A stretch of 36,559 bases of DNA, taken from NCBI GenBank assembly GCA_903913865.1, contig CAIWMU010000102.1, positions 1 through 36,559 on the forward strand, written 5' to 3'. Shown piece after piece: positions 1-36,559 of this stretch (positions are counted from its first letter, which is position 1; every line of letters begins with the position of its first letter). This DNA comes from an uncultured Verrucomicrobia subdivision 3 bacterium. Its GTDB lineage: Bacteria > Verrucomicrobiota > Verrucomicrobiia > Limisphaerales > UBA8199. Under the pieces are notes generated by a model, which worked only from the letters and a program-made list of their open reading frames with translations, did not search any database and had not been told where the DNA came from. A program made the position numbers and the translations under genes.

Positions 1-3000
1 CGGCTCTTGTCCTCCGCCGAGACGGTCAGGACCGCCTTGCTGACTGTCAGCGTGGCGCTGTTGGTGGTCACACTGTAATTGCCCAGTTTCCCATCCGGAT
101 CACTCAGCGAGGGGACGATGTTGTAGGTCCCCACAGGACTCGCCGCCGTAGCAACCGTGGCATACGCCCCACTGATGTTGTCGTTGTTCACGATCCCGGC
201 AACCGTTCCCGTCAAGACCGGATTCCCGGCCCCATACACCCGGTTCGTCGCATTCGCCGTGATCGTCATCTCAGCCCGGTTCACTGTCAAAACCCCATTC
301 GTAAAGCTAAACCCATAGTTTGTGGCGCTGAGCGAGCCAATCGCTGCCGTGATCGGGTATGCTCCGACCACACTGGCGGTGATGGCTGTGGTCGTGATGG
401 ACGGGGCTCCACCCAGAAGAGATACGCTCTCTCCGTTCAGCCAACCGCTGTAACTGGCGGTGAACACGGGATTGGTCTGGCCATACACCCTGCTCTTATA
501 GTCCGCAGCCACCAACAGCGTTGCCTTCCCCACGGTCAGGGTGTTTGTCACGCTCCCGGCGTAGTTGGCCTCATCAACCGTCCCAACCACCGTGTAACTC
601 CCGGCAACAATGGGTGCATCGGCCGATCCGCCGTAGCTGATCGTAACCGCCAACCCCGTGGGTGTGGTTGTCGAGGTCACGATCCGTGCCGTTCCACTGT
701 AGGTCTGACTCAGGGCACCCAGCTCAACCGTGGCGGACGCCTTGTCCACCACGATCGCAAAAGTGTTGGTCGCCGTCAGTAAGCCATCACTGGCCACCAG
801 CCTCACCCAATTGCTCCCGGCCGCCGTCGGGGTCCCGGAGAAGGTTCGGGTGTCTGAAATCAGCGTGATCCCGACCGGCAGACCGGAAGCGGTGTAACTT
901 AGGGGGTTGCCATCAGCGTCGGAGAAGGTCCCCGACGGGAAGGTGTAGCTGAAGGCTGCGGCATAGGTGGCCGATTGATTGGTGACGGCTGTCGTAACCA
1001 CGGGGGCCTGATTCACCGCCAGTGTGCGGAAGCTGATAGTGGAACCATGATTCGTCCCTGCCACATTGGTTCCCACCACACTGTAGTAATAGGTCGTCTC
1101 AGGCAACAACCCGGTCAACTGATTGCTCACAGTCACAACACTCAAACCTGGCAGATCACTCTGGACCAGAACCTGATCAGCCAGATTCGTTGTTGATCCA
1201 TATTGGAGGAACACCCCTGATGGGGTTCCTTGCGGATTGATGCTGGCGTTCAGGAAAGCCGAGTTGCTGCTGATGCCGCTCGCTGGAAGGGTTGTCACCG
1301 TGGGACTGGTAAATACCGTGACATTCACTGCTCCTGTGCTGCTCTGGTAATTGGTTGCGGCAAACGGCGTGAAGGTGACGCTCTGAGCAACCCATCCGGC
1401 ATCCGGCGTGGTGGATGGCACCGTCCAGCTGAACACTCCGGCAGGAGTGACCGTCCCTCCCGTCAACGTCGAGCTAGCCAACGTCTCTCCAAAGGGGATG
1501 GCACTTGCGGTGGGCCAAACGGTAACGACGGGCAGGGCCTTCGTCACAGTGAGGCTGACCAGTCGGTTCGTGGTGGTGTAGTTGTTGGTGTCGGTTGGTG
1601 TGTAGATCACACTCTGCGACCCAACGCCAACGCCCGGGGTATGCGTCGGTGCCGCCCAGCCAAAGAAACCGGCTGGCACACCGATGCCGCCACTAAGGGA
1701 CGATGCCAGGAGTGTCTGCCCGTAGGCGATGGAACTGGCACCCGGCCAGACGGTCACAGTCGGCACGCTCTTGTTGACTGTCACGTTCACAAGAAAGTTG
1801 GTCGTGCTGTAGTTGGTGGTGTCCGTGGGTGTGAAGGTGACGCTCTGCTGCGCTGTACCGGCGTCAGGTGCGGTCGCTGGAGTTGTCCAACTGAAGCTGC
1901 CTGCAGGAGTGGCTGAACCGCCACTGAGCCCCGAACCTGCCAGTGTTTGACCATAGGCAATGGGAGCCGCAGCAGGCCAGGCAGTCACAACCGGGGTCGC
2001 TTTGCCAATAGTCTGCATGAGGGCAACGGCATTGGAGGATCCATTGTAGTTGCAGTCGCCGCTATATAGGACAGTGATGTTGTGTATTCCAAAAGCCAGC
2101 CGGTTGGTGGTGAAGGTCGCAACACCGGCCATCAACGCCCCCCTTCCGAGCGGCGCTCCACCGTCGCTGAATGTTACGAAGCCAGAAGCCTGTCTGGGGA
2201 CCACCGTTGAAGTGATGGTCACACTGGCTCCGTAAACCGAGGGATTCAGGCTTGATTCAAGGGTGATGGCTGAATCAGCCAGCGTGCGTGATCCGGTTGC
2301 AGCCAGCGTTGTGAAAGACATCGTCTCGCCCATGGCGGTTGATACGCCGTTACCCGCCACGGCACGGTAGTAATAGGTGGTGTCAGGGAGAAGGCAGTCC
2401 GCAATCCCGCTGATGGGCTGCGGGGTGCTGCCGGTCAGGCCGGTCTGGGCCGGTGCCACCATCAAATCAGGGCCTGGTTGCAGGGAAATCTTGCGGACAC
2501 AATAGTAGTCGGCAACATACAACAGGGTTCCTGAGCGGTTCACCGCCACTCCCCTGGGCCAACTGAATTGGGCGGTGGCGGCGGGGCCATTCATCAATGC
2601 ATACCCATTGGTATTTCCGGCAATGGTCGTCACAACCCCATTTGTGGTCACCATCCGGATCAAACTATTATAGGAGTCAGCCACATAAATATTACCAGAG
2701 CCATCCACCGCCATTCCTTCCGGATGGTTGAATTGTGCCGCAACACCCGCCCCGTCTGCATAGCCAAAATTTGTCGAGCCTGCCAGGGTCGTTACCACCC
2801 CGTCCATCGTGACCTTACGAATACAATTGTTACTGTATTCCGTGACGTATAACACGTTCGCTTCCAGGTCCACAGTAACACACTGCGGACCATTGAATCT
2901 CGCCCCACTTCCGGTGCCGTCAACGTAGCCCGCATTCGTGGACCCGGCAAAAGTCGAAACCACCCCTTCACTCGTTATCTTGCGGATGCAGTTGTTGCCA

Positions 3001-6000
3001 TAGTCCGCAAGATATACATTGCCCGCATTATCAACCCCCAAACCGGCCGTGGAGCAGAACCGCGCAAGGTTGCCCGGGCCATCGACATAACCGGGGGCGG
3101 ACTGGGAGGAGTTGGTCGCGCCGGCCAGCAATGTCACCATCCCGTTGGTCGAAATCTTCCGAATGTTGTTATAATAATAATCAGACACATAAATGGTGCC
3201 CATGCCGTCCACGGCAATGCCGAATGGGTACACAAACCTCGCCGTGGCGATCGGACCGTCCAGATAACCGGAACCACTACCAGCGAAGGTCGTAACAAGC
3301 TGGTCCGGAGCGACTTTGCGAATCCGGGAAGTGTAGGTATCAGCAACCAGCACACTGCCTGTTTTGTCCAGGGCCAATGAAAACAAGTCCTGAAATTTCG
3401 CTTCAATGCCGGGCCCATCTGCATATCCACCGCGATTTGTGCCTGCGAGAGTGCTAAACATGAGCTGCGCGTTTGTCGCATACTCAAACAAAGTCCACGT
3501 CGGCGCGTCGTTGGGATTGACACTGCCATTCAAAGTAGCAGTGCTGCCCCCTATCCCGGTGGAAGGTGCCGTTGTCACACTGGGGGAACCGTAAACGGCC
3601 AGTGACAGCACGACAGTGTTCGTGCATCCAATGTAATCACTGTACCCCGAATACTCTGCCGTTATGTCGTGGATGCCTAAACTCAGCGTGGTAAGAGAGT
3701 ATGAGAAGATCCCGCCACTCAGGTAGGTAGTGGATCCAATCCTCACACCGTCAGACTTCAACGTCAGGCTGCCCGAATTGACAGGCGGTGTAACACTCGC
3801 GGTCACGGTTACCAAGTAGCCGAGGCCGGTTGGATTCCGGCTGGATGTGACAGTGACGCTTGTGGGACACTTGCCCACCACCTGCTCGAGGGCGGGTGAA
3901 TTGGTCGCCCGTTGGAAGAACAAATCCCCACTGTATTCGGCGGTAATGCTGTGGGCACCCGCCACCAGATTGCTGGTCGTGAAAGTGGCGATACCCTCGC
4001 TTAACACGACCGTGGCAAGGTTGGCACCACCATCCCGAAAGACCACTCTGCCAGTCGCTATGCTGGGGGAAACCGTCGCAGTGAACGTCACGCTATCCCC
4101 ATAGATGGATGGGTTCAGTCCGGAGTTCAGGACAAGTGTGGAAGGGTTGGGGGGAGCCGTGGTTGTAAAGCCATGCGTCTCACCATAGTTCGTGCCCGCA
4201 CTGTTTGTGACCACAACCCGGAAGTAGTAGGTGGTGTAGGGGAGCAGGCCGGTTATGACATTGCTTATGCCGAGATCATTGCTGCCCGTAAATCCGGTTT
4301 GAACCGGCAACGAAACGACGGTTGCTCCCAGTTGGCTCACCAGTTTGCGGATGGTGTGGTTCCCTGAGTCCGCAACATACAAATTGCGACCACTGTCCAC
4401 AGCAACGCCAGTCGGCCGGTTGAACTTCGCCGCACTCCCGATTCCGTCGGTGGTGCCAGTCGAGTTCGTGCCAGCCACGGTCGTCACAAATCCTGCGGTA
4501 TCGATTCTGCGGATCCGGAAATTATCCCGATCTGCCACGTAGATGTTACCGTCGTAGTCCACCGCAACGCCGCATGGGTGATAAAACTTCGCCGCACTCC
4601 CGATTCCGTCCGCCCAACCGGCACTACCATCACCCGCCAGAGTCGTGACGACTCCCTCCTGCGTAACCTTGCGGATGCAGTTATTGGTCAGATCGGCAAC
4701 GATCACGTTTCCCAGCTTGTCCAGCGCCACCCCAAACGGGTTGTTGAACATCGCAAGGCTCCCCGCTCCGTCCACGAAGCCGGTTGAGTTGGTACCTGCC
4801 AGCGTCCTCACCATGCCCGCCGCCGTAATTCCCCGGATGCGTTGGTTGCCGCTGTCCGCCACAAAGAGGTTGAGGTCATTGTCCACCACAACCCCGGAAG
4901 GCAGATGGAATCTCGCCTCTCCGGCGAACGCATCAAGGTAACCATCTGTGTTCGTGCCAAAACCCGGAAGCATACCAGCAAACGTCGTTACCAACCCCGC
5001 CTGCGTGATCTTCCTGATGCAGGGCAGGTTCCCCTCGGCCACCCACACGTTGCCAGCGTAATCCACCGAAACACCCGCCGGCCAGTTGAACCTGGCAGCC
5101 CGTCCCAGTCCATCCGATGCGCCGCTATTGTTTGTGCCCGCTAGCGTGGTGACCACACCGAGAGGCGAAATTTTGCGGATGCAGTGATTGGCCGAGTCGG
5201 CCACGTAAACATTATTCGAGCGATCCACCGCCACCCCTCTCGGAGTGTAGAACCGTGCGGCGCCACCGGTGCCGTCACGGTAGGCACCATATCCATCATA
5301 AGTGCCGGCCAGCGTGGTCACATTCCACCCCCCTGCATTGGTTGAGTATTGTATAAAGGCTCCCGTGGCGAGATGGCTGGCGTTGACAAGGCCACTCACC
5401 GTCGCGTTGGTCCAGGTGACATCAGTGGCTGCGAGGGTCGATGGCACCGGTGCGTTGCACATAAGGATTTCGACCGCCGGTGAACTTCCCGAGGCGGCAT
5501 AGTTTGCGTCCCCCGAATATTCGGCCGTAATACCACGCCACCCGGTGACCAGATTTCCTGCGTCAAGAACAGCCCTGCCACCGGCCAGGGCAACAGTGCC
5601 CAGGATGTTCGTCCCGTCCTTGAAAGTCACAGTGCCAGTGATGGGCGTCTGTGAGTCAACGGTTGCCACAATGGATGTCAAACCAACGGAAGTTCCAACA
5701 GCTGCGAAATTCGTACTCGCTACGAGGCTGGTTGTTGTTCTGCCCTTGGTCCAAAAGCTCATCGTTAGGCCATTTTCTTTTGGCACGTTTACTCCCACAG
5801 CTCTGTGGTAGTAGGTGGTCGCCGGCAAAAGGCCAGTGATCGTGTTGCTGAAAATCATCACACTGGAGCCGCCAAGCCGGGTCCAAACGGTCGTCGAAGC
5901 CACCGGCGGGGCCATTTGGTATTCAAGTTCACGAATGCAGTGGTTGTAAAGATCCGTCAAACGGATGTTTCCCCGGTCGTCCAAAACCACACTGGTTGGA

Positions 6001-8144
6001 ACGTCGAAAGCTGAGAGAGTGCCAACTCCATCCACGAACCCGCTAAGGCCGCACCCCGCCAAAGTGTTCACGATTCCCAAGGGTGTCACCAACCGGATTC
6101 GGTGGTTACCAGAATCCGCCACCACCAAACTGCCCACCCGATCAATCGCCACTCCCGTCGGCGATTTGAACCTGGCACCCGCGCCCACCCCATCACTCCA
6201 TCCAGCAACGTTCGTGCCTGCCAGCGTTGTCACCACTCCCGAGGGGGTCACTTTACGGATACAATGGTTGCCAGTGTCGGCAACGAACACGTTACCTGCA
6301 CCATCGACTGCAACCCCCTGGGGGGCGTTGAATTGCGCCAGGCTCCCAACTCCGTCGGACCAGCCAGCAGTGTTGGTCCCCGCCAGAGTTGTGACTTTCC
6401 CATAACGGTCGATCTTTCGGATCCGGTTGTTGCCTGTGTCGGCCACATAAACCGTTTCACCCCATTCATTAGCTGCTTGGACTGCGATCCCCCTTGGGGA
6501 AGTGAAATGAGCCACCGAACCGTCCCCGTCTTGAAAACCGTCCACACTTCCAGCCACCGTAACAACCTGACTGGTCTCAGTTAAACTACTAGGAGGAGGC
6601 AGGGAGATTCCCCGTATCCGGTGGTTACCCGTATCCGAAACGTACACCGAGATCCACCCGTGCCTGTCGGTATCAACCGCCACGGCACTTGGGCAGCGGA
6701 AGCGGGCACTCAACAGGTTTGTCCCATCCCATGTGCCGGGACTCCCCGGCCCGCTCCCCGCAAGCGTAGTCACCATCCCATTTGTTGTAATCACTCGAAT
6801 AACGTGGTTGCTGCTGTCCGCCACATATGTATTGCCAGCGATGTCCATCGCAAGCCCCGCCGGGTAGCTGAACCGGGCCACTGTGCCAGTACCAGGCCAT
6901 AGGCCGTTGAAGGAACCGGCCAGGATGCTGGATGCCCAATTCCCATTGGTCGTGTATTCCGAAAAAGCATCCGTTGGAACTCCGTTGGGATTCACCGTCC
7001 CGCCCAATGTCGCGGAGGTCGCCCCGATCTCTCCCGCCGGCAAAGTGGTGACGGTTGGTCCCGCACACACCGTCTGCACTAACGGAGTCGCGTTCACCCA
7101 GCCGTCATATTTCAAGTCCCCCCCATACGCGGCCGTGATGTTGTGCGTGCCGACCGCAAGCTCATTCGTGGTAAAACCCCTCGCAGTGAACGTCGCAATC
7201 CCCCCGGCCAGGCTGCTGGTGCCAAGGGTCCTGGTCCCGTCTTTGAACGTCACAGTTCCGGTGGCATCGCCCGGCCAGACCGTCGCCGTGAATGTCACAT
7301 CACGCCCAACAGTCGAGGGATTCACGCTGGAAGACTCCGTAACCATGGACGGTGCCTTGGGCCCAAACGCCTTGAAGGTCGCCATTACCCCTTCCCATCC
7401 CGTATAGACACCAGCCGAAAAGGGACTCAGCTCACCCTCCAACCAGGGGCGTTCAACCGCATTTGCGACCCGACCCAATGCGAAAACCTTGGTCTTATAA
7501 CTCCAATTGACATCAGTGCGAATGGCAGTCGCAGTGTCCAAAAGCGAAAATGAATTCAACAGGGATGTCAGAGTTGGAATGTTGTCTGCAAGGCGGATTC
7601 CCCCAATCCATAACTCCTCAGCCTGCGTGGTGGTCTCCGTGATCCCGATCGATATATTCGTTCCCGTGCCAACAGCACTGTTGGTCCGGTCCAGACAATC
7701 CACCACCCGTAATCCTGAGTACTCCATGACGACCGCTGCCGCAGGCATGGGCTGGAGAAACCAGTCGAAATTAATTGTTAACAGGTTGGACGCCCCTATG
7801 ACACGGGGTGCGTACCAAACTTCAAGCGAAACCCCTGAATTAAGCCCCACCTCTGTTGCCCTGACCCAGTTGGCACCCACTTGCGTTATCGACTTGACCG
7901 GTGCGCTCGCTCCGATAACCGCGATCAAAGTGTTCAAATTCGTTGGCCCGTCCGGCAGGGCACAGACCAGGTTTGTAGCCAGGGGGGCGATGGCGGTTGC
8001 GCTTTGCACCAGTTGCACATCCGCCGCACCACCCAGCACCCTCGACAAGAGCAAACAACAAAAGATTGCCAGACGCCCAAAACGGGATGGAAAAGCATCG
8101 TTCGAGGCTGAGTTTACGCTTTTTAATGAAGTAACATTTTTCAT
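1..8144 (-). CDS. Giant secreted NHL/Ig-like/MBG repeat protein (3' end outside window)
   Basis: An open frame of 2,714 codons runs from ATG 8144 off the left edge without a stop. The N-terminus has a long n-region and a hydrophobic stretch (residues 25-41, ending LGGAA), so it is probably secreted. Residues 42-260 are an unrecognised beta-rich domain. After that come: Big_3_5-type Ig (269-359), FN3-like, NHL block 1 (405-750), FN3-like, Ig (809-896), FN3-like, NHL block 2 (939-1269), FN3-like, two Ig (1339-1519), FN3-like, NHL block 3 (1562-1886), FN3-like, Ig (1956-2046), three tandem Ig-like repeats with a YGQTL-type motif (2046-2282), FN3-like, a He_PIG-like domain (about 2380-2460) and MBG repeats to the edge. 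Each NHL block shows six NHxIRK-type motifs, the blade count of a six-bladed propeller. Proteins of this kind are extracellular and their ligands are mostly unknown. No catalytic domain is visible. A sorting signal, if any, lies beyond the window. No clear Shine-Dalgarno site precedes the ATG. Confidence 0.9.
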   Translation of the reverse strand, partial: MKNVTSLKSVNSASNDAFPSRFGRLAIFCCLLLSRVLGGAADVQLVQSATAIAPLATNLVCALPDGPTNLNTLIAVIGASAPVKSITQVGANWVRATEVGLNSGVSLEVWYAPRVIGASNLLTINFDWFLQPMPAAAVVMEYSGLRVVDCLDRTNSAVGTGTNISIGITETTTQAEELWIGGIRLADNIPTLTSLLNSFSLLDTATAIRTDVNWSYKTKVFALGRVANAVERPWLEGELSPFSAGVYTGWEGVMATFKAFGPKAPSMVTESSSVNPSTVGRDVTFTATVWPGDATGTVTFKDGTRTLGTSSLAGGIATFTARGFTTNELAVGTHNITAAYGGDLKYDGWVNATPLVQTVCAGPTVTTLPAGEIGATSATLGGTVNPNGVPTDAFSEYTTNGNWASSILAGSFNGLWPGTGTVARFSYPAGLAMDIAGNTYVADSSNHVIRVITTNGMVTTLAGSGPGSPGTWDGTNLLSARFRCPSAVAVDTDRHGWISVYVSDTGNHRIRGISLPPPSSLTETSQVVTVAGSVDGFQDGDGSVAHFTSPRGIAVQAANEWGETVYVADTGNNRIRKIDRYGKVTTLAGTNTAGWSDGVGSLAQFNAPQGVAVDGAGNVFVADTGNHCIRKVTPSGVVTTLAGTNVAGWSDGVGAGARFKSPTGVAIDRVGSLVVADSGNHRIRLVTPLGIVNTLAGCGLSGFVDGVGTLSAFDVPTSVVLDDRGNIRLTDLYNHCIRELEYQMAPPVASTTVWTRLGGSSVMIFSNTITGLLPATTYYHRAVGVNVPKENGLTMSFWTKGRTTTSLVASTNFAAVGTSVGLTSIVATVDSQTPITGTVTFKDGTNILGTVALAGGRAVLDAGNLVTGWRGITAEYSGDANYAASGSSPAVEILMCNAPVPSTLAATDVTWTNATVSGLVNASHLATGAFIQYSTNAGGWNVTTLAGTYDGYGAYRDGTGGAARFYTPRGVAVDRSNNVYVADSANHCIRKISPLGVVTTLAGTNNSGASDGLGRAARFNWPAGVSVDYAGNVWVAEGNLPCIRKITQAGLVTTFAGMLPGFGTNTDGYLDAFAGEARFHLPSGVVVDNDLNLFVADSGNQRIRGITAAGMVRTLAGTNSTGFVDGAGSLAMFNNPFGVALDKLGNVIVADLTNNCIRKVTQEGVVTTLAGDGSAGWADGIGSAAKFYHPCGVAVDYDGNIYVADRDNFRIRRIDTAGFVTTVAGTNSTGTTDGIGSAAKFNRPTGVAVDSGRNLYVADSGNHTIRKLVSQLGATVVSLPVQTGFTGSNDLGISNVITGLLPYTTYYFRVVVTNSAGTNYGETHGFTTTAPPNPSTLVLNSGLNPSIYGDSVTFTATVSPSIATGRVVFRDGGANLATVVLSEGIATFTTSNLVAGAHSITAEYSGDLFFQRATNSPALEQVVGKCPTSVTVTSSRNPTGLGYLVTVTASVTPPVNSGSLTLKSDGVRIGSTTYLSGGIFSYSLTTLSLGIHDITAEYSGYSDYIGCTNTVVLSLAVYGSPSVTTAPSTGIGGSTATLNGSVNPNDAPTWTLFEYATNAQLMFSTLAGTNRGGYADGPGIEAKFQDLFSLALDKTGSVLVADTYTSRIRKVAPDQLVTTFAGSGSGYLDGPIATARFVYPFGIAVDGMGTIYVSDYYYNNIRKISTNGMVTLLAGATNSSQSAPGYVDGPGNLARFCSTAGLGVDNAGNVYLADYGNNCIRKITSEGVVSTFAGSTNAGYVDGTGSGARFNGPQCVTVDLEANVLYVTEYSNNCIRKVTMDGVVTTLAGSTNFGYADGAGVAAQFNHPEGMAVDGSGNIYVADSYNSLIRMVTTNGVVTTIAGNTNGYALMNGPAATAQFSWPRGVAVNRSGTLLYVADYYCVRKISLQPGPDLMVAPAQTGLTGSTPQPISGIADCLLPDTTYYYRAVAGNGVSTAMGETMSFTTLAATGSRTLADSAITLESSLNPSVYGASVTITSTVVPRQASGFVTFSDGGAPLGRGALMAGVATFTTNRLAFGIHNITVLYSGDCNYNGSSNAVALMQTIGKATPVVTAWPAAAPIAYGQTLAGSGLSGGSATPAGSFSWTTPATAPDAGTAQQSVTFTPTDTTNYSTTNFLVNVTVNKSVPTVTVWPGASSIAYGQTLLASSLSGGIGVPAGFFGWAAPTHTPGVGVGSQSVIYTPTDTNNYTTTNRLVSLTVTKALPVVTVWPTASAIPFGETLASSTLTGGTVTPAGVFSWTVPSTTPDAGWVAQSVTFTPFAATNYQSSTGAVNVTVFTSPTVTTLPASGISSNSAFLNASINPQGTPSGVFLQYGSTTNLADQVLVQSDLPGLSVVTVSNQLTGLLPETTYYYSVVGTNVAGTNHGSTISFRTLAVNQAPVVTTAVTNQSATYAAAFSYTFPSGTFSDADGNPLSYTASGLPVGITLISDTRTFSGTPTAAGSNWVRLVASDGLLTATNTFAIVVDKASATVELGALSQTYSGTARIVTSTTTPTGLAVTISYGGSADAPIVAGSYTVVGTVDEANYAGSVTNTLTVGKATLLVAADYKSRVYGQTNPVFTASYSGWLNGESVSLLGGAPSITTTAITASVVGAYPITAAIGSLSATNYGFSFTNGVLTVNRAEMTITANATNRVYGAGNPVLTGTVAGIVNNDNISGAYATVATAASPVGTYNIVPSLSDPDGKLGNYSVTTNSATLTVSKAVLTVSAEDKS

Positions 8145-8164
8145 ATGGAAAATAATCTGGCCGG

Positions 8165-8200
8165 GTGATCGTGGCAGCAGAACGAATGAAGGTCGATCAC
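8165..8200. promoter_or_regulatory. Possible operator upstream of the giant gene
   Basis: GTGATCG (8165-8171) and its exact complement CGATCAC (8194-8200) form a 7-bp inverted repeat spaced by 22 bp, about 20 bp upstream of the giant gene's start codon. Half-sites two helical turns apart would suit a dimeric regulator. A 7-bp match can occur by chance, so this is only a candidate. Confidence 0.2.
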
Positions 8201-8944
8201 GGATTTCGGGTTCCCCTCATCTGAGCATCGTTTAAAACCCTTTTCCGAAAAGCTGCCGCTGCAGAGTCTGCTCGATTGGGAAATTACCCCGTTGAACACA
8301 CCAGTCCGCACCGTCTTTGTGCTGGCATCACCGGGTTGACTTCTTGGTCCGGTCACCGAACCATCAATTGCAACGCCGAGTTTGCCTCTCACAAACGGAA
8401 CAGCCCCATGTTCGAGCTCTGATGTAAGGCACATAAGAGCGCCTGCACGACGGTTTGCTCTTCTGATGGGGCGGAAAGATGCGAACGCAGTTGGGCTCGT
8501 GGCACTGATGGAATACCTTCCACTTGCCCTGCTTTGGACACCGCCTTCTTCGGAGCCGCAACAACCTCCGCCAAGGGAACATCCCGAGCCCTCCAGGCGA
8601 GTGCACTCCCCCCACTTTAAAGACAGCACGAAGGTTCCTCGGATCAGGTTGGACAGATTCCTTTGCAAGACTCAAGGATGGTTACACTTTTGACTGCAGG
8701 GTGCCACCAAACCAGACGGCCGGTATCCCATGAGGTTGAAACAAAAATCAACAGCAGGAGACAGGGTTATGTCATCAGCTTCATTCGCAAAATTTGGATG
8801 AGTTTGTCTTCTTATGTGTACATCACGCTTATGATTATGCATCCAACCGAGAAATTCTCACGAACAGATACCACTCTTCAACATAATTCTGCATTATGCT
8901 ACCCTTTTTTTTCATTTTGGCCTTTGATGGAGAACTTTTGATTG

Positions 8945-29400: not shown

Positions 29401-30231
29401 GTGCGAAACCTGATCAAACTCCCGAAGATGTGGCAAGCCTCCATCCTGACCACCTGCCTTGCGGTTCTATGCCTGCTCGCGCAGGGCTGTTCCACCGTGC
29501 CGGTTACGGGCCGCCGCAGCCTGAACCTGATTCCAGCCGGGGAGGAATTGCAACTGGGCCTGACCAGCTTTGAGGAAACGAAAAAGGGAACCCCCATCAG
29601 CAAAAACCGCGCCGCTAATGAGCAGGTGCAGCGGGTCGGGAAACTGGTCGCTCAGGTGGCCTCTCCCGACCTCCCCAACGCCCAGTGGGAATTCGTGGTT
29701 TTCGAGAGCAAGGAGGCGAATGCCTTCTGTCTGCCGGGTGGCAAGGTAGGTGTTTATACCGGCCTGCTGCCCATCACGCGCACGGATGCCGGGCTGGCCG
29801 CAGTCATAGGCCATGAGGTGGGCCATGCCGTGGCCCATCACGGGGCCGAGCGGATGAGTGAGGCCTTGATGATTCAGGGGGGAGGCGAGTTGCTCAAAGC
29901 CGGAATGTCAAAGCGTGATCCGAAGGTTCAGGAGGCTGCCGCCCTCGCCTACGGTGTTGGCATGAAAATGGGCCGGGAACTGCCGCACAGCAGGCAGCAG
30001 GAACTGGAGGCCGACCAGATCGGCCTGATTTACATGGCCCGTGCCGGTTATGACCCGGCCGAAGCAATTGCCTTTTGGAAACGGTTCTCGGAGGCGAACG
30101 GGCAGGCGAAAACCCCGCCCGGCGTCATTGAACGTTGGTTGAGCACCCATCCGGTGAATGCCGAACGGATCAAGCAACTGGAACAACTCCTCCCCAAAGC
30201 CCGGGAGGAAATGAAAAAGCCGGCCCAATAG
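29401..30231 (+). CDS. M48-family lipoprotein metalloprotease (BepA/YcaL-like)
   Basis: A 276-residue periplasmic protease. A lipobox LAQGC (Cys30) follows a charged n-region and hydrophobic stretch, then the conserved PVTGRRSLNLIP motif. The zinc site is HEVGH (138-142) with Glu203 in ELEADQIG. It ends near GVIERWLSTHPVNAERIKQL, the usual M48 tail without TPR repeats. Such enzymes clear misassembled outer-membrane proteins. The GTG at 29401 is preferred because it supplies the positive n-region (RNLIKLPK); GGAGG is only one base upstream, so ATG 29428 with a poorer signal peptide remains possible. The next gene begins 2 nt after its stop. Confidence 0.87.
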   Translation: MRNLIKLPKMWQASILTTCLAVLCLLAQGCSTVPVTGRRSLNLIPAGEELQLGLTSFEETKKGTPISKNRAANEQVQRVGKLVAQVASPDLPNAQWEFVVFESKEANAFCLPGGKVGVYTGLLPITRTDAGLAAVIGHEVGHAVAHHGAERMSEALMIQGGGELLKAGMSKRDPKVQEAAALAYGVGMKMGRELPHSRQQELEADQIGLIYMARAGYDPAEAIAFWKRFSEANGQAKTPPGVIERWLSTHPVNAERIKQLEQLLPKAREEMKKPAQ

Positions 30232-30233
30232 GA

Positions 30234-31544
30234 ATGACCCGCTTCCACAAGCATCACAACCGGGACCAAAGCCAGGCTGGATCCGCCCTCCTCTGGTTGC
30301 TGGTCCTGGCGAGTATCGCAGGTCTGGCCGTGTTTTTTTGGTATGCGGGGCAGGAGCAGGTCATCCCGCTCCCCACCACACCATCGGCTGCAAAGTCCCA
30401 AACCGCTCCAAAGCCGGCCACCAACAGCGCACAGGAGTTCACCCCGGTACATGTCCTCAGAAAGGACAGCGATACCCCTCTGGTGAAACCCCGCACCCTC
30501 AGCAAGGGGGATCCCATGCCGGCGGTGGTTGCTCAGACGAATCCTCCCCCAAGCCCTCTGCCGGCGGTCACCAATACCGTCCGGACTCCCCCGCCACTGT
30601 CATCCACCAACATCACGCCCATCACTCCCGCCTCCAATTCGACACCCAAAACCTTCTCCACCCTCTCCACGAACGCCCCCGGCTACCCACGCCCGACCCG
30701 AACCATTCTTGAAGCCCAGATCGCCATGGATCGCCTTGGAATCTCCAGCGGTTCACTGGATGGTGTCGTCGGATCCCAAACCCGGTCCGCCTTCCGCGCC
30801 TTCCAGAAAAGGACCGGCCTCGTTCCTTCAGGGGAATGGGATCTCCCCACCCGTGGTGAACTCCTGCTCGACCGCCCGCCCATCACATCCTGTGTTCTCG
30901 CCACAAACGATCTTGCGGAGATCCAACCCCTCAGTCCCTCCTGGCTCGGCAAGTCCCAACAAAGCAGGCTCGCCTTTGAGTCCGTTCTGGAGAGCCTCGC
31001 CGAGAGAAGTCACGCCCACCCTGAACTCATCCGCCACCTCAACCCGGGCATCAACTGGACCAACGTGACAGCTGGCACAACGGTCCAGATACCCGATGCC
31101 TCCCCTGCCCCACCCGCCACCAAAGCGGCCTGGGCCGTCATCCGGCTGGGGGAGAAAACCCTGGAGGCCTTCGATTCAGCCACCAACCTCCTGCTGCACT
31201 TCCCGTGCAGCATCGCCCGTTATGTCGAAAAACGGCCTCTCGGGGAACTTCACGTTACCGCCATCGCCCTGAATCCCAATTACACCTTCAACCCCGCCCT
31301 GTTCCCGGAATCGCCCGAGGCTCAAACCATCACCACAAAGCTCATCCTGCCCCCGGGCCCGAACAATCCGGTCGGGGCCGCCTGGATCGGTCTGGACAGG
31401 CCCGGTTACGGCATGCACGGCACGCCCGGTCCCGAACAGGTGGGGCGGACGGAGTCCCATGGCTGCTTCCGCCTGGCAAACTGGAATGCTGAACTGTTGG
31501 CAAGGCATTCGTTCCTCGGCATGCCGGTCCTCGTGGAACCTTGA
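30234..31544 (+). CDS. L,D-transpeptidase with peptidoglycan-binding domain
   Basis: A 436-residue envelope enzyme. A signal anchor (about 18-37) precedes a long Pro/Thr-rich linker (about 45-155). A peptidoglycan_binding_1-like module follows (IAMDRLGISSGSLDGVVG, SAFRAFQKRTGL), then a LysM-like segment (HAHPELIRHLNPGINW). The C-terminal YkuD domain carries HGTPG (395-399) and catalytic SHGCFRL with Cys411. It makes 3-3 cross-links or attaches proteins to peptidoglycan. It starts 2 nt after the M48 lipoprotein gene, so the two are cotranscribed and probably act together at the cell wall. Confidence 0.9.
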   Translation: MTRFHKHHNRDQSQAGSALLWLLVLASIAGLAVFFWYAGQEQVIPLPTTPSAAKSQTAPKPATNSAQEFTPVHVLRKDSDTPLVKPRTLSKGDPMPAVVAQTNPPPSPLPAVTNTVRTPPPLSSTNITPITPASNSTPKTFSTLSTNAPGYPRPTRTILEAQIAMDRLGISSGSLDGVVGSQTRSAFRAFQKRTGLVPSGEWDLPTRGELLLDRPPITSCVLATNDLAEIQPLSPSWLGKSQQSRLAFESVLESLAERSHAHPELIRHLNPGINWTNVTAGTTVQIPDASPAPPATKAAWAVIRLGEKTLEAFDSATNLLLHFPCSIARYVEKRPLGELHVTAIALNPNYTFNPALFPESPEAQTITTKLILPPGPNNPVGAAWIGLDRPGYGMHGTPGPEQVGRTESHGCFRLANWNAELLARHSFLGMPVLVEP

Positions 31545-31598: not shown

Positions 31599-31850
31599 TT
31601 ACCGACCCGGCGAATGGGTGATGCCCACCCGGGCTGGAGTGTTTGTCACGACAATCGGAGGAAGTTTCTGGATCCGGCGCTGCTGCAGTTGATCAATCAT
31701 GTGGAGATCCCGTCCCAGGTAGTGCAGGGTCCGCACATTCCCCATGAGATAAATCAGCAGCAGGGTGATGATCACAATGATGACAATGGTCGCAAAACCA
31801 CCCCGGTCGCAGCGCGGGGATGTCCGGAATTTGGAGCAGGGAATGTTCAT
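31599..31850 (-). CDS. Small GspK/PilX-like pseudopilin-type protein
   Basis: An 83-residue protein with one hydrophobic helix right after RGG (FATIVIIVIITLLLIYLMG, residues 19-37). The placement resembles the N-terminus of GspK or PilX, which lack the Glu5 of ordinary pilins; here position +5 after Gly18 is Val. A short amphipathic helix follows (LGRDLHMIDQLQQRRI) and then a tail; the large globular domain of GspK is absent. It is the last gene of the pseudopilin operon and overlaps the preceding gene (ATGA). It may be a minimal tip or initiation pseudopilin. This reading is inference from helix position and context. Confidence 0.6.
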   Translation of the reverse strand: MNIPCSKFRTSPRCDRGGFATIVIIVIITLLLIYLMGNVRTLHYLGRDLHMIDQLQQRRIQKLPPIVVTNTPARVGITHSPGR

Positions 31851-32347
31851 GGCGTTGCGGGGTTCGCGGGCACGGCAATGAATGTGAAAACCGGCTTGAA
31901 GCGCGGGGTTTTTGAATGGGTTACCAGCTCCAGATCGCAGCGCCAGGCTGTCACCTTCTCACGGGGATCGGGCTCGAAGCTGATTTCGTGAAGATTCCCC
32001 AGCACCGGTACCCACGGTCCTGCCCCGACTTTGCGCAACAAACTCGTACCTCCCGACCGGTAGTCAACCTCCCCCTGCCCCCCCTGCAGCCGCAGAATGC
32101 GCCCCTCCCCGGTTTCGCCCCACTCCACACGGGTCGCGCAGCGGATATCGGCCCGCCACCGCTCGCCAACGCGCATCGCGCGACCAAAATCATCGGCGCT
32201 GCGCCGCAGGGCGACCGAGTTTGTTAAACAGCGGTCGAGGCCAAGATACGCGGCTGCCAGCACGATCACCAGCACGCCGGCATACACCAGCACCTCGATC
32301 ATCATGTAGCCGCAACGGCCCTGTCTGTTCTGGAATCTGGTCTTCAT
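31847..32347 (-). CDS. Pseudopilin, GspJ/PilW-like
   Basis: A 166-residue pseudopilin. The class III signal is RCG then YMMIEVLVYAGVLVIVLAAA, with cleavage after Gly13 and Glu18 at position +5. The beta-rich C-terminal part (about 60-160) resembles GspJ/PilW globular domains (SLLRKVGAGPWVPVLGNL, WRCDLELVT). ATG 32347 is fixed by a 4-nt overlap with the upstream gene's stop. It overlaps the next gene by ATGA as well. Confidence 0.8.
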   Translation of the reverse strand: MKTRFQNRQGRCGYMMIEVLVYAGVLVIVLAAAYLGLDRCLTNSVALRRSADDFGRAMRVGERWRADIRCATRVEWGETGEGRILRLQGGQGEVDYRSGGTSLLRKVGAGPWVPVLGNLHEISFEPDPREKVTAWRCDLELVTHSKTPRFKPVFTFIAVPANPATP

Positions 32348-32715
32348 GGCAATTTCACCTCCCGCCAGACGATGGGGTGCTGGCTGGCATCCCTCCATTC
32401 GAGGCGAAGCTGGTGCGGTTGGCGGATCAAAACAAATGCTCCCGGAGGCAGATTGGTCGCGGCCCTCGCCTTTACTGGATACGGATTTGTCCCCTCGGGA
32501 AAGAGCTGCCACTCCCCTGCAACAAGGGTTTCAAATTCACCATCCACAATCTCCATCGCGACAGCATGGTGATACTGCGCACGGGCCAGTCGGCGCTCGG
32601 AGGAGATGGAATAGGCAAGCGGCAGAAGCGCCGAGGTCAGCAGCGCCAGTGCCGCCAGCAACTCGATCATCAGCCAGGCCTGGCTGCCTTTTGCATGATT
32701 TCGCCGGATTACCAT
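32344..32715 (-). CDS. Pseudopilin, GspI/PilV-like
   Basis: A 123-residue pseudopilin. The hydrophobic helix begins AWLMIELLAALALLTSALLP, with Glu18 at +5 if cleavage follows Ala13 (Gly10 would put Glu at +8), an unusual but tolerated site. The small globular part contains FETLVAGEWQLFPEG. The ATG at 32715 overlaps the upstream gspF stop by 7 nt; the gene ends inside the next start codon. Confidence 0.75.
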   Translation of the reverse strand: MVIRRNHAKGSQAWLMIELLAALALLTSALLPLAYSISSERRLARAQYHHAVAMEIVDGEFETLVAGEWQLFPEGTNPYPVKARAATNLPPGAFVLIRQPHQLRLEWRDASQHPIVWREVKLP

Positions 32716-33887
32716 AATGATGCGGTTTGGATGAGGGCAATAAGGGCAAGGAAGATGGCGATCGCCGTCATTCCGACCACCAGCCCGTTGTAAAGCACCA
32801 GCACCGTGGTGGCCACCTGCGCCGCCGCCTGCTCCTGTTGAAAGGCGCTCGCATCCAGGGCATCGTGCCACCCTGCAAGTATCGATTGAAAGTCCGACCC
32901 GCGCTTCAGGGCGTTGGCCAGCCTCCATCGCAGTTCCCCCGCCCCATCGATCGACTGGATCGCCTCCGGCAGAGCGACTCCCGCGCGAAGCTGGTCGCAG
33001 ACCCGTCCCGCCCGCTTCTCAAACATCACATTGTGGGTGGACTGCCCCGCAAGCGTCACCGCCTCCTCCTCCGCAATTCCCGCATCCAGAAGCACCGCGA
33101 GCATGGCGCTGAAATCCCGCTGCAATCTCTTGCGCCGCCACGGCATCATCCAGAAAATCCCATCCACCACCTCGGGGGAAATCCCCCTCAACCACCGCCC
33201 AAGCCTCGGGCCTCCCGCGTAGCAAAGCGCCATCGCCCAGACCAGGGCGAGAAAAACCATCTGAACACCCACAAACTGCATCTGGCTTCCAAGAACGAAG
33301 CGCGTGAACGCGGGAAGCGTCCCGTTCGCCAGCATGTCTTCGAACACCGCGCGAAACACCGGGATCACCTTGATCTGGCAAAAGATGGGCAGGAATATCA
33401 TGACCGGAGTGAAGGCGAACGTGATGATCAGCAGGTAATTCAGCGCCCCGCGCACCTGCGAGAGCGCGTCATCCTGCAGCTTCCGCGCCGCCGGGATCAC
33501 CTTCCGCACATCCCCCAGCCGCTCGCCGATCGCCAGCATGGCCACCACCTGCTGCGGCAGTAACCGTGGCACGGCTGCCAGGGCAGCTCCCAGATTCTTC
33601 CCGCTCGACATCTCCCGGGCCAGTTGTTGAAACCTCCGGCCCAGCGTCTTATCGGATATCGCCGCGGTTTGTGTGATGATCTGCCCGGCGCTGATCCCCT
33701 CCTCCACACCGAGTTGCAACAAATCCAAAAACACCCGGGCCCTCTCAGCCCTCCGGAGCGGCAGGCTCAGAAAGAAATAGACGATGTAGATCCCCACCGT
33801 GCACAGCAGCAGATAGACCACCCCGGCCAACATGGCCAGCACTGGCAGGAACGGACTCTCCAGGACATCGTTGTAGAAATCGTTCAT
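32709..33887 (-). CDS. gspF: GspF/PilC-type platform protein, second copy
   Basis: A 392-residue inner-membrane protein with two GspF-type cytoplasmic helical domains, around residues 50-150 (LDLLQLGVEEGISAGQII, ERLGDVRKVIPAARKL) and 255-350 (MLAVLLDAGIAEEEAVTLAG, LRAGVALPEAI), each followed by membrane segments. An extra hydrophobic segment at the N-terminus (about 15-45) distinguishes it from the first copy. GspF couples the ATPase to pseudopilus assembly. ATG 33887 with GAGGA five bases before it is favoured over GTG 33902. It starts 7 nt after the first gspF. Confidence 0.85.
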   Translation of the reverse strand: MNDFYNDVLESPFLPVLAMLAGVVYLLLCTVGIYIVYFFLSLPLRRAERARVFLDLLQLGVEEGISAGQIITQTAAISDKTLGRRFQQLAREMSSGKNLGAALAAVPRLLPQQVVAMLAIGERLGDVRKVIPAARKLQDDALSQVRGALNYLLIITFAFTPVMIFLPIFCQIKVIPVFRAVFEDMLANGTLPAFTRFVLGSQMQFVGVQMVFLALVWAMALCYAGGPRLGRWLRGISPEVVDGIFWMMPWRRKRLQRDFSAMLAVLLDAGIAEEEAVTLAGQSTHNVMFEKRAGRVCDQLRAGVALPEAIQSIDGAGELRWRLANALKRGSDFQSILAGWHDALDASAFQQEQAAAQVATTVLVLYNGLVVGMTAIAIFLALIALIQTASLW

Positions 33888-33894
33888 GAGATCC

Positions 33895-34866
33895 TCAATC
33901 ACCCAGCGCGTTCAAGAGTTGCACCATCGACTGCACCACCGGGGCCACCTGCCAGAAGACCACCTGCCCCAGGAGGAGCACCGAGACCGGCAGTGCGCAG
34001 TAAAGCAGCAGTTCCGATTGATGCGCCGCCCTGGATTGGTAAAGATTCGCCGCATTCTGGAATCCCCCGGCCACATCCTCCCCCCGCTGGCGCAGCAACC
34101 ACATGAACAAAGGCGGGAACGGGCGGGCATCCCCGCTCCACTGCGATGGGCCGCCATCCCCGGCTGCCACCCGCTCTTTCCATCGCGCCAGAGTGGCGGC
34201 GGCAGGCGTCCCCTCCTCAAGGCTCCCGGCAAATGCCAGTGCCTCAGGCAGGGGCGTCCCGCCACGCAACATCAGCGCAATGGTGGAAGCCAGTTGCGCG
34301 AGGCTCGCCTCCCGGAATGCCGGCAGCCTCCACCTCAACCATGTCCGGGCCCGGGGCAGCACCATAACCAGAGTCGCCACCACCCCCAGAAGCCCCAGCA
34401 GCACGGGAGTCACCCAGAGGAGCAAAACCATTCGATCGCTGTTTGGCACCAGCCCGCCATGATTATCAGCGAGGAAATGGCTGAAAATGACGGAAAGCAG
34501 GGTCGTGAGACCGAACGCCACCAGGATGACAAGGAGCGGATAAACCATCAACCCCTTCAGCCGGGTCCAGAGCACTCCCGTCCGCTGGTAATGGTCGGCC
34601 AGTAATTGCAGCATCGCCGGCAGGTCGTTCCCCCGGGCACCGATCTGAACCATCCGCCTGTAAAAGACCGGCAGCTTGCCCCCATCCAGCGCCTGCGCCA
34701 AAGGGGTGCCCAGGGAAAGCTCATCCTCGAGACGCGCCAGTTCCGCACGCAACCCGGCATCCCGCAACCCCGCTGCCAGCTGGCGCAGCGATCCCTCAAG
34801 GGGCATCCCCTGCTTCAGCATCAGCCCAAGCTGCTGATTGAAAAACGCCAACTCGTCAAGTTTCAT
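33895..34866 (-). CDS. gspF: GspF/PilC-type platform protein, first copy
   Basis: A 323-residue platform protein with the two GspF domains (residues about 5-110, FFNQQLGLMLKQGMPLEGSL and VQIGARGNDLPAMLQLLADH; and about 195-290, STIALMLRGGTPLPEALAFA) and membrane segments at about 105-130, 150-172 and 295-315. It is shorter than ordinary GspF (about 400). It follows gspE by 51 nt and is followed by a second, diverged gspF. The pair probably forms a heteromeric platform. Confidence 0.85.
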   Translation of the reverse strand: MKLDELAFFNQQLGLMLKQGMPLEGSLRQLAAGLRDAGLRAELARLEDELSLGTPLAQALDGGKLPVFYRRMVQIGARGNDLPAMLQLLADHYQRTGVLWTRLKGLMVYPLLVILVAFGLTTLLSVIFSHFLADNHGGLVPNSDRMVLLLWVTPVLLGLLGVVATLVMVLPRARTWLRWRLPAFREASLAQLASTIALMLRGGTPLPEALAFAGSLEEGTPAAATLARWKERVAAGDGGPSQWSGDARPFPPLFMWLLRQRGEDVAGGFQNAANLYQSRAAHQSELLLYCALPVSVLLLGQVVFWQVAPVVQSMVQLLNALGD

Positions 34867-34917
34867 AACAGTTCATCTGCACCTGTTTCGACCGGGCAGC
34901 GACCAATCCGTCACGCA

Positions 34918-36036
34918 TCATAAACCCCGGAGCACTTCCGCCTCCGTCGTAAGTCCTGCAGCCACCCGCTCCCTGCCGCAATCAGCAAGGGTCGGCTCCG
35001 CCCGGATTCCGCGAAACTCCCGGCTCAAAACCAGATTTCTAACCTCATCCCCCGGCGCCAGAAATTCCGCAAGCACCAGCCTCCCGGCAAAGCCTGTGCC
35101 CAGGCAGCCCGGGCATCCCCCCCCGGCGCACCCTCGGCACAACCGCCGCACCAGCCGCTGGTTCAGCACCAGGCTGGTCGCCGAGGCAATCGCCGAGGCG
35201 TCCGGGCAGAAGGATGACAACCGCTCAAACACCCCACGGCACGACCCCGCGTGCAGCGTTGAGATGATCAGGTGCCCCGTTAACGCCGCCCGCAGCGCAA
35301 TCTGCGCGGTGGACTCGTCCCGGATCTCCCCGATCACCAGCACCTGGGGATCCTGTCTCAGCAAATGCCGGGCCGCGCATGCAAAATCCAACCCGCGCGC
35401 CTCGTTCACCTCTGTCTGCATGATCCCGGGCAGCACCCGCTCCACCGGATCCTCCACGGTGATGATGTGCCGCCCCTTCTCTGCCGCCAATTCCCGCAGG
35501 CAGGCATGGATGGTTGTCGTTTTCCCGCTCCCGGCAGGCCCCGTCAGCAGCAGAAGCCCTGAACTCTGCTTCAGGAACCGGCTCACGGCCGCCCGGGCCC
35601 CCTCAGGCAACCCCAGATCCCCCACCACCCGCTCCTGATCCCCCTGAAACAACCGCAAAACAATCTTCTCCCCGGTAACCGTCGGATAGGTGGCCACCCG
35701 CACATCCGCCGCCGTGCCAATGTCCGCTTTGTCGATCCGCCCATCCTGCGGCAGGCTTTCCTGGTAGGTTTTCAGCCTGGCCAGAAATTTCACCCGCCCG
35801 CAAACCCGTTCCGCCAGTCCGGAGGGAAGCACCCCGGCATCCGTCATCACCCCATCCAACCTCAATCGCACCTCGGCAGCCTCCCCGCGCATCTGGATGT
35901 GGATGTCGCTCGCCCCGGCCCGCTCCGCCTCAGCAGCGAGGCGCGCCAGCAGCCCGGGGGCTGCCTCCGCCCCGGTGCATTCGGCCAACAGCCCGGCCAT
36001 CAAACCGCCTGACTCCATCAATGTTTGTTTTGTCAC
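34918..36036 (-). CDS. gspE: GspE/PilB-type secretion ATPase, short form
   Basis: About 372 residues from the suggested GTG 36036. It powers pseudopilus assembly. Walker A is GPAGSGKT (166-173), the Asp box region is TVEDPVE (194-200), Walker B region VLVIGEIRD (232-240) and the His box STLHAG (259-264). The tetracysteine zinc site is extremely compressed: Cys300, 303, 308 and 311, where most GspE proteins have a long loop between the two CxxC pairs. The N1 domain of standard GspE is missing. GTG 36036 is chosen because AGGA lies 6 nt before it; in-frame ATGs at 36018, 36132 and 36261 are alternatives, the last overlapping the upstream frame. Confidence 0.87.
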   Translation of the reverse strand: MTKQTLMESGGLMAGLLAECTGAEAAPGLLARLAAEAERAGASDIHIQMRGEAAEVRLRLDGVMTDAGVLPSGLAERVCGRVKFLARLKTYQESLPQDGRIDKADIGTAADVRVATYPTVTGEKIVLRLFQGDQERVVGDLGLPEGARAAVSRFLKQSSGLLLLTGPAGSGKTTTIHACLRELAAEKGRHIITVEDPVERVLPGIMQTEVNEARGLDFACAARHLLRQDPQVLVIGEIRDESTAQIALRAALTGHLIISTLHAGSCRGVFERLSSFCPDASAIASATSLVLNQRLVRRLCRGCAGGGCPGCLGTGFAGRLVLAEFLAPGDEVRNLVLSREFRGIRAEPTLADCGRERVAAGLTTEAEVLRGL

Positions 36037-36253: not shown

Positions 36254-36559
36254 TCATTCATTTTCCACCCGTTGGTCCGGCTCCACCCGCCCCACCTCCT
36301 GATGCGCGTCCTCGTGCAACAGGGACCACAAGTCCATTTCCAGCGTGCAGCCTCCCGGTGGGATGGCAACCCATGAATGGCCGTGCGGTGCCGTGGGGCA
36401 TCAACATCCCGCAGTTGACCACGCACCCCTTGTTGCCCCGGTTGATGGGGCGAGATCCCCATCCCCAATGGACTGCCAGCCGGATGACGGAAAGGCGGAT
36501 GGACGAAATGCCCGTGTTGGTGCGAATCTCAAGAGGTGTTCTTTTGGTCGCCCCCTGTC
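36254..36559 (-). CDS. Unrecognised partial gene with an apparent frameshift
   Basis: A coding-like frame enters from the right edge (IRTNTGISSIRLSVIRL, then INRGNKGCVVNCGMLM). At a run of four C (36398-36395, minus strand) the plausible frame shifts: dropping one C continues as PHGHSWVAIPPGGCTLEMDL and ends RVEPDQRVENE before TGA at 36256-36254. Without the shift the frame ends in a Gly-rich tail and stops at 36258. GC-rich third positions continue across the shift in the corrected frame. It is either a pseudogene or a single-base sequence error. The product is not recognised. It lies immediately upstream of gspE on the same strand and may be the preceding gene of that operon. Confidence 0.4.

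Follow-up and report, generated by a model that had tools for sequence, protein, structure and literature searches.

Background

How the platform protein couples the ATPase to the extraction of pilins in type IV filament machines is still debated, and the systems described in the relevant passages of PMC12019362 and PMC6668835 work either with a single platform protein of two domains or with two platform proteins of one domain each. In the parts of the literature drawn on here, the CpaG-CpaH pair of the Tad system is proposed to form a heterodimeric platform (PMC12019362), both PilC paralogues are essential for the Epd pili of archaea (PMC4371748), and the platform proteins of Tad and Epd, each with one T2SSF domain, are ascribed to gene fission (PMC6668835). 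The stretch of DNA analysed here (the window) is a whole contig of 36559 bases (CAIWMU010000102.1, G000:C102) from an uncultured Verrucomicrobia subdivision 3 bacterium, whose genome is spread over 267 contigs. Translation of its open reading frames (ORFs) and profile searches place on the minus strand, from position 31599 to about 36018, a cluster of six genes, E-F1-F2-I-J-K, in which one ATPase gene is followed by two genes for platform proteins (Table 1). This cluster is best read as a variant that belongs to the type IV filament superfamily and comes closest to the type II secretion system (T2SS), without being a T2SS itself. More specifically, with a probability of roughly 0.6, it encodes a stand-alone filament assembly machine of the T2SS kind, with a mixed F1-F2 platform, a tip of I, J and K, and a short pseudopilus.

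Table 1. Genes of the cluster in the window, and a permease gene (A) found near the cluster in some relatives.
Gene	Position	Strand	Product and remarks
E	34918..36018	-	GspE/PilB-type ATPase, N1 domain not recognisable; start uncertain: 36036 GTG, 36018 ATG or 36000 ATG
F1	33895..34866	-	GspF-type platform protein, 323 aa; without N-terminal part of GspF; two T2SSF domains
F2	32709..33902	-	Second GspF-type platform protein, 397 aa; extra N-terminal hydrophobic segment; two T2SSF domains; alternative start ATG 33887
I	32344..32715	-	GspI-like minor pseudopilin, 123 aa
J	31847..32347	-	GspJ-like minor pseudopilin, 166 aa
K	31599..31850	-	GspK/PilX-like protein, 83 aa, barely more than N-terminal pilin helix
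A	L093:2705-4300; L106:2802-4367; L124:8308-9870; L216:2251-3888		ABC-2-type permease

Conservation of the gene cluster

The six genes are all present in the order, and with the overlapping start and stop codons among the last genes, that an earlier note on this DNA had described: F2 and I overlap by 7 nucleotides, and I and J, like J and K, by 4. The overlap of F1 and F2 is 8 nucleotides, provided that the GTG at 33902 starts F2, and E is separated from F1 by 51 nucleotides. The contig stops at position 36559, about 0.5 kilobases (kb) upstream of E, so that genes farther upstream can be judged from relatives only.

Relatives were compared in two sets that share genomes and are not summed: 80 loci kept from 96 relatives in titled genomes (the 80-locus set), and 51 loci from 50 genomes chosen among the search matches for family spread (the 51-locus set). 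Orthologues were taken from all ORFs with iterated hidden Markov models, automatic gene calls being sometimes in the wrong frame, and order was scored only where at least 2.5 kb upstream and at least 4.5 kb downstream of F1 were available. The order E-F-F-I-J-small, which the earlier note had proposed to look for in other genomes, recurs strictly in 47 of 52 loci of the 80-locus set and 32 of 42 of the 51-locus set. The five exceptions in the former are a split F2 (L153), the merging of which raises the count to 48/52, a displaced E (L165), and three loci without E (L134, L137 and L172); the ten in the latter are a split F2 (L119, the same contig as L153), a K below threshold (L113), a displaced E (L089 and L112), and six loci with no E in the stretch. 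At another locus (L156, in G069), F1 contains a stop and F2 and I were not found, apparently a broken copy or an assembly error.

The hosts are a group of soil and water bacteria. Orthologues of F1 (E <= 1e-25) occur in 117 of 293 genomes and 61 of 118 genera of the window's order (an order of Verrucomicrobiota, Limisphaerales or subdivision 3 by record titles), and an F2 orthologue (at least 41% identity) occurs in 10 of 13 genomes of the family. Most of the 80 kept relatives are titled Verrucomicrobia, subdivision 3, Limisphaerales or Pedosphaera, the closest titled record being Verrucomicrobia subdivision 3 bacterium UBA693 (70% in F1). Five F1 loci (L139, L155, L166, L191 and L200) are titled Methylacidimicrobium, Proteobacteria, Akkermansia or Planctomycetota, probably from mislabelled assemblies. 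In a phylum sample of 387 genomes, few of them from this order, the only other genome to exceed 130 bits with F1 is G585, of another class, and the remaining matches, at 70 bits or less, are at the level of ordinary GspF. Among 197 genomes of that other class, two (G585 and G706) have the system, both with the full order, and a third match (76 bits, 25% identity) looks ordinary.

Eight pairs of closely related loci from the 80-locus set, none of them including the window itself, allowed 46 comparisons of genes, in which dN/dS ranges from 0 to 0.42. Because the order recurs across a bacterial order and dN/dS lies in this range, the cluster is more than a chance arrangement; as judged from its relatives, it is conserved and under purifying selection, and is not debris. 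That it is the decaying remnant of a T2SS, to which the small gene set, the stop at L156 and the split F2 of L119 and L153 might point (either of the latter two could be an assembly error), is scarcely credible in view of the purifying selection, an order conserved over many families, and the catalytic boxes kept in the ATPase.

The ATPase

The E protein matches PF00437 (1.7e-87), and its top match among NCBIfam models is GspE, at 306.8 bits against an equivalog cut-off of 630.25. The homology begins at the N2 region (position 113 of the GspE model). An open frame reaches about 168 codons upstream of the conserved core in the window, but this stretch is not conserved with the copy from the same genus (15/100, 12/44 and 7/25 residues identical, versus 274/347 in the core), and only 1-58 residues fit upstream of the core in 35 of 43 E proteins of the 51-locus set, one of the other eight being cut short. 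There is thus no room for an N1 domain, as the description of E as a short GspE without N1 had it.

Judged from the alignment of 21 E proteins of the system, the catalytic boxes are retained: the Walker A motif GPAGSGK is common to all, TLHAGSC stands where canonical rows read TLHTN, and both CxxC pairs are kept, the usual loop between them being absent. The closest solved structures are PilF/PilB and GspE, ahead of PilT. In a tree that kept the long rows PilT and PsCit, with references that include a gene from contig C13, the E proteins of the system form one clade (support 100/100) on a long stem, apart from 12 reference rows.

Twin platform proteins

F1 and F2 both match PF00482 (2.9e-26 and 4.7e-15, respectively), as do 20 of 20 F1 members of one alignment, and a domain search of the genome recognises four separate T2SSF domains in the window, at 34483-34836 and 33952-34287 in F1 and at 33387-33731 and 32748-33113 in F2. 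Their scores against the NCBIfam GspF model are 80.1 and 55.2 bits (equivalog cut-off 424), F1 aligning from position 63 of the model onward only. By simple hydropathy, F1 has segments near residues 120, 161 and 295, and the extra segment of F2 lies near residue 27; three segments are seen in 37 of 48 F1 proteins and four in 38 of 44 F2 proteins.

In a rebuilt tree of 47 rows, which left out L027 and the short L052_F1, the F1 proteins (16 rows) form a clade with support of 100/99 and the F2 proteins (17 rows) one with 100/100. References for the E and F trees were proteins of the same genome as the window and of E. coli K-12, plasmid-encoded proteins from Pararhizobium and Tropicibacter (for E and F) and from Pseudomonas (for E only), and five GspF rows from the family. 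On these trees E, F1 and F2 are each a strongly supported clade apart from the canonical T2SS and type IV pilus proteins of their own genome; the references are few, and the placement is relative to them rather than to the whole superfamily. The reading of two diverged GspF proteins is thereby upheld, and the statement that the platform was duplicated is right in that two platforms are present; F1 and F2 may or may not stem from one duplication (a topology that unites them in one clade is not preferred, nor is it rejected; p-AU 0.393).

F2 comes immediately after F1 in 69 of 72 cases in the 80-locus set and 45 of 47 in the 51-locus set; L104 and L122 (the same contig as L177) were scored as misses only through a broken F2 alignment. 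Two distant lineages, L214 (of another class) and L215, have the order E-F1-F2-I-J-K-F1-F2, and quick trees make the two copies of each F protein sisters in both loci, so that F1-F2 was duplicated as a pair, independently, at least twice. Second F1-F2 pairs are also present in G046, G078, G227 and G234, where the copies are not sisters in quick trees; some of these pairs may be older. The near-constant adjacency of the two genes and their duplication as a pair suggest that F1 and F2 form a mixed platform. Alternatively, they might be two platforms that share one ATPase, for two directions (extension and retraction) or for two filaments, without a mixed complex; the failure to recognise a PilT-like gene in the cluster agrees with such a division of labour, but a mixed complex accounts no less well for two genes that are nearly always neighbours and were duplicated together, and separate platforms appear very unlikely.

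Pseudopilins

I, J and K have no significant match in Pfam or NCBIfam, and their labels as pseudopilins therefore needed other proof, which was found in the prepilin signals of all three and in the predicted folds of I and J. The signal of I has D or E at position +5 in 87 of 87 non-identical homologues, and that of J has E or D there in 94 of 98. Of 85 homologues of K, 72 have G where the signal is cleaved and 84 have no acidic residue at +5, and over all 85 the mature protein has a median length of 62 amino acids (range 47-122); the description of a tiny GspK-like protein thus holds well beyond the window.

Modelled with AlphaFold2, I (pLDDT 94.9) and J (pLDDT 93.8) both have a predicted long N-terminal helix. 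The seven best VIA rows for I are chains of T2SS pseudopilin complexes of the size of GspI (top Z 8.3 over 74 residues, 2.5 A; first unrelated row 5.4), which we take to be GspI from their length and from their names, XcpV and EpsI being GspI proteins. The top VIA row for J is XcpW, which, like EpsJ, is taken here to be GspJ (Z 11.6 over 108 residues, 2.9 A; first row outside the pilin class 4.7). The models accordingly predict ordinary GspI-like and GspJ-like folds for I and J, and the proposal that the minor pseudopilins are reduced is borne out for K but not for these two. K appears too short for much beyond the pilin helix, and may be a bare helix.

Because K is short in nearly all homologues and the six-gene unit holds no other candidate for a shaft, it might be asked whether K, as a subunit of about 62 residues, itself forms a thin filament in the manner of the Flp pilins in Tad, to which I and J would contribute minor subunits. 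However, the tip proteins GspK and PilX lack an acidic residue at +5, as do nearly all K proteins, and the position of K after I and J is that of GspK in the gsp order of E. coli; a shaft made of K is decidedly improbable.

Shaft, secretin, peptidase and substrate

The remaining parts of a T2SS were looked for in gene lists (models of GspC, GspL and GspM were not run), and neither the cluster nor its flanks showed a recognisable gene for G, H, C, D, L, M or a peptidase; among the matches listed, none of the secretins comes within 13 kb of F1. The genome itself has five secretin loci, all on contigs other than that of the cluster, a single locus for a prepilin peptidase, and prepilin signals at 85 places. 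It also has a T2SS cluster on contig C67 (E, F, pseudopilins and secretin), further ATPases, and, on contig C93, PilB/PilC-like genes plus a gene taken for PilT. The E and F proteins of C67 score 600.9 and 342.1 bits against the NCBIfam GspE and GspF models, below the cut-offs and yet far nearer to them than those of the cluster. A peptidase, shaft candidates and channels are thus encoded in the genome, none of them recognised beside the cluster. In at least about a dozen genomes (G051:C60, G114:C276 and G093:C76 among the matches listed), secretin domains lie within open frames that are 2,646 to 5,155 codons long and possibly encode giant secretin-containing proteins.

Alternatively, E, F1-F2 and I-J-K might be an auxiliary module of the canonical T2SS that builds no filament by itself but swaps into that system or regulates it, supplying a second motor and tip for its GspG shaft and secretin. 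In favour of this are the T2SS cluster on C67, the lack of recognised G, H, C, D, L, M and peptidase genes at the locus, and the presence of secretins (PF00263) in all 51 of the system's host genomes that were tested. Yet an ATPase and two platform proteins of its own exceed the needs of a tip swap, the two F proteins, like E, have diverged far from their canonical counterparts, and no canonical T2SS cluster was recognised alongside in the gene lists; an auxiliary role is therefore considered unlikely, and a stand-alone machine is preferred.

The earlier note also supposed that the system might be dedicated to a large secreted repeat protein, and this found no support. The candidate, at positions 3-8216 of the window, is a protein of about 2,700 amino acids, cut by the contig end, with NHL repeats and bacterial Ig-like and MBG domains; it lies about 23 kb from the cluster, and no recurrent family of flanking genes backs a link. 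With S and A (below) set aside, no family of flanking genes is shared by more than 7 of the 51 loci, and the most frequent one is a generic ABC ATPase.

Neighbouring genes in relatives

A gene for a small membrane protein with two segments (S) follows K in 29 of 46 loci with room for it in the 51-locus set and in 44 of 63 in the 80-locus set; in a mixed total that counts some genomes twice, S is present in 81 of 139 loci (for example L120:10317-10583 and L124:8023-8292). Fourteen aligned members share invariant S, G and P residues and the motif WNxA, and Pfam gives only weak hints, to DUF4190 (0.0032, 3/14 members) and DUF4870 (0.0022, 1/14). Adjoining S in 17 loci of the same total of 139 is a gene (A) for an ABC-2-type permease of about 520 amino acids, beside which no ATPase gene was recognised by eye; L216 has the order E-F1-F2-S-A. 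Neither S nor A was found in the window. There, genes for an M48 peptidase and an L,D-transpeptidase with a peptidoglycan-binding domain (29401-31544) are convergent with the cluster; they have no match in 10 family loci searched.

Comparison with described systems

The cluster has the features of the type IV filament superfamily: an ATPase of the PilB/GspE type, platform proteins with T2SSF domains, and prepilin-like subunits with a class III signal. Its resemblance to the T2SS, as represented by gsp of E. coli K-12, extends to the gene order (E-F, then I-J-K), the GspI-like and GspJ-like folds, the GspE-like ATPase and the T2SSF domains of the platforms. It differs from the T2SS in having two platform genes, E and F proteins in separate clades and below the equivalog cut-offs (above), no recognised N1 domain in E, a very short K without the large periplasmic domain of full-length GspK, and none of the other T2SS genes recognised in the cluster. 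It is not classed as a T2SS because a single GspF, a full GspK and a linked GspG were tested for and were not found.

With the Tad/Flp (TadB-TadC, CpaG-CpaH) and archaeal Epd (EpdJ-EpdK) systems the cluster shares two platform genes for one ATPase. In contrast to theirs, however, F1 and F2 carry two T2SSF domains each, which makes duplication or double recruitment a likelier origin than fission, and the match of E to the TadA-family model is weak (28.9 bits, cut-off 373.15) beside that to GspE. The short ATPase and small operon recall ComGA-ComGB of monoderm competence pili, and E scores 221.5 bits against the ComGA model (cut-off 300); the cluster differs in the predicted GspI-like and GspJ-like folds of I and J and in host genomes that carry secretins. 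We know of no second ComGB. Type IVa pili (PilB-PilC-PilT) have a homologous ATPase and platform, but a reading of the gene lists (no models were run) brought up no recognisable PilT, pilMNOPQ or major pilin in the cluster, and the PilB/PilC-like genes of the genome are separate.

The earlier note's suggestion of a distinct branch of the type IV filament family fits the separate clades of E, F1 and F2 and the conserved order. The GspE and GspF trees, run as a test of it, gave no placement inside a known T2SS or type IV pilus clade with the same gene order, the references being few. A full-text literature search, with most subscription papers and all bioRxiv preprints outside its scope, found no description of this layout in the passages it covered, and a prior description is possible. 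Neither Verrucomicrobia nor Planctomycetes are named in the main text of PMC6668835. A passage of PMC13274419 credits one isolate of Verrucomicrobiota with 67 pulG-like pseudopilins as well as an ordinary T2SS, so that a pseudopilin expansion in this phylum is already published, and a passage of another study reports pseudopilins enriched in two Verrucomicrobiae populations; this cluster appears in neither passage.

Proposed mechanism

With an assembly motor, a platform of two proteins and counterparts of the three proteins by which a T2SS pseudopilus is primed, the cluster probably builds a short pseudopilus. The one prepilin peptidase locus of the genome would provide for cleavage of I, J and K, whose helices would come together within the inner membrane to make an I-J-K priming tip; a hexamer of E would then drive the mixed F1-F2 platform, as proposed for CpaG-CpaH of Tad, and the platform would extend a short pseudopilus in the periplasm. 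Its shaft may be very short, or may be made of a GspG-like prepilin, many of which are encoded at other places in the genome. S, in the relatives that have it, might take part of the role of GspL and GspM, and passage across the outer membrane, if any, would be via a secretin encoded elsewhere.

Several points weigh against this machine. At the threshold used, 176 of 293 genomes of the order have no F1 match, and the system is present in 67 of 154 of the more complete ones (at most seven candidates were scored per genome, so that some of the absences may be artefacts of the search); in 8 of 42 loci of the 51-locus set, E stands elsewhere or was not seen. The contact of F1 with F2 is read from the pairing of their genes. 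The top VIA row of J ties with a type IV-like pilin of Thermus (Z 11.1), and Foldseek alone gave no significant match to the PDB for I or J. No constant major pseudopilin is linked to the cluster: a sequence-pattern search for GFxxxE-type ORFs found one within 6 kb in 7 of 51 loci, and the same search found three pseudopilins at a canonical T2SS locus (L011) as a control, so that the proposed shaft subunit is a guess. Finally, secretins occur in every tested genome with the system and genomes without it were not compared, and the co-occurrence is therefore uninformative as to whether a secretin is needed.

A bolder claim, offered tentatively and at somewhat less than even odds, is that the cluster represents a class of its own among type IV filament machines, found to date only in Verrucomicrobiota, which would be marked by a mixed platform built from two full-length proteins (with four T2SSF domains between them), a GspK reduced nearly to its helix, the conserved S protein, an ABC-2-type permease in some lineages, and no dedicated shaft subunit or outer-membrane channel.

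Significance

A pair of two-domain platform proteins side by side would allow the parts of the platform to be told apart by mutation, and a GspK trimmed to about its helix raises the question of what purpose the large domain of GspK serves. The system is common in a large and little-cultured group, and the Verrucomicrobiota carry many pseudopilin genes of unclear role.

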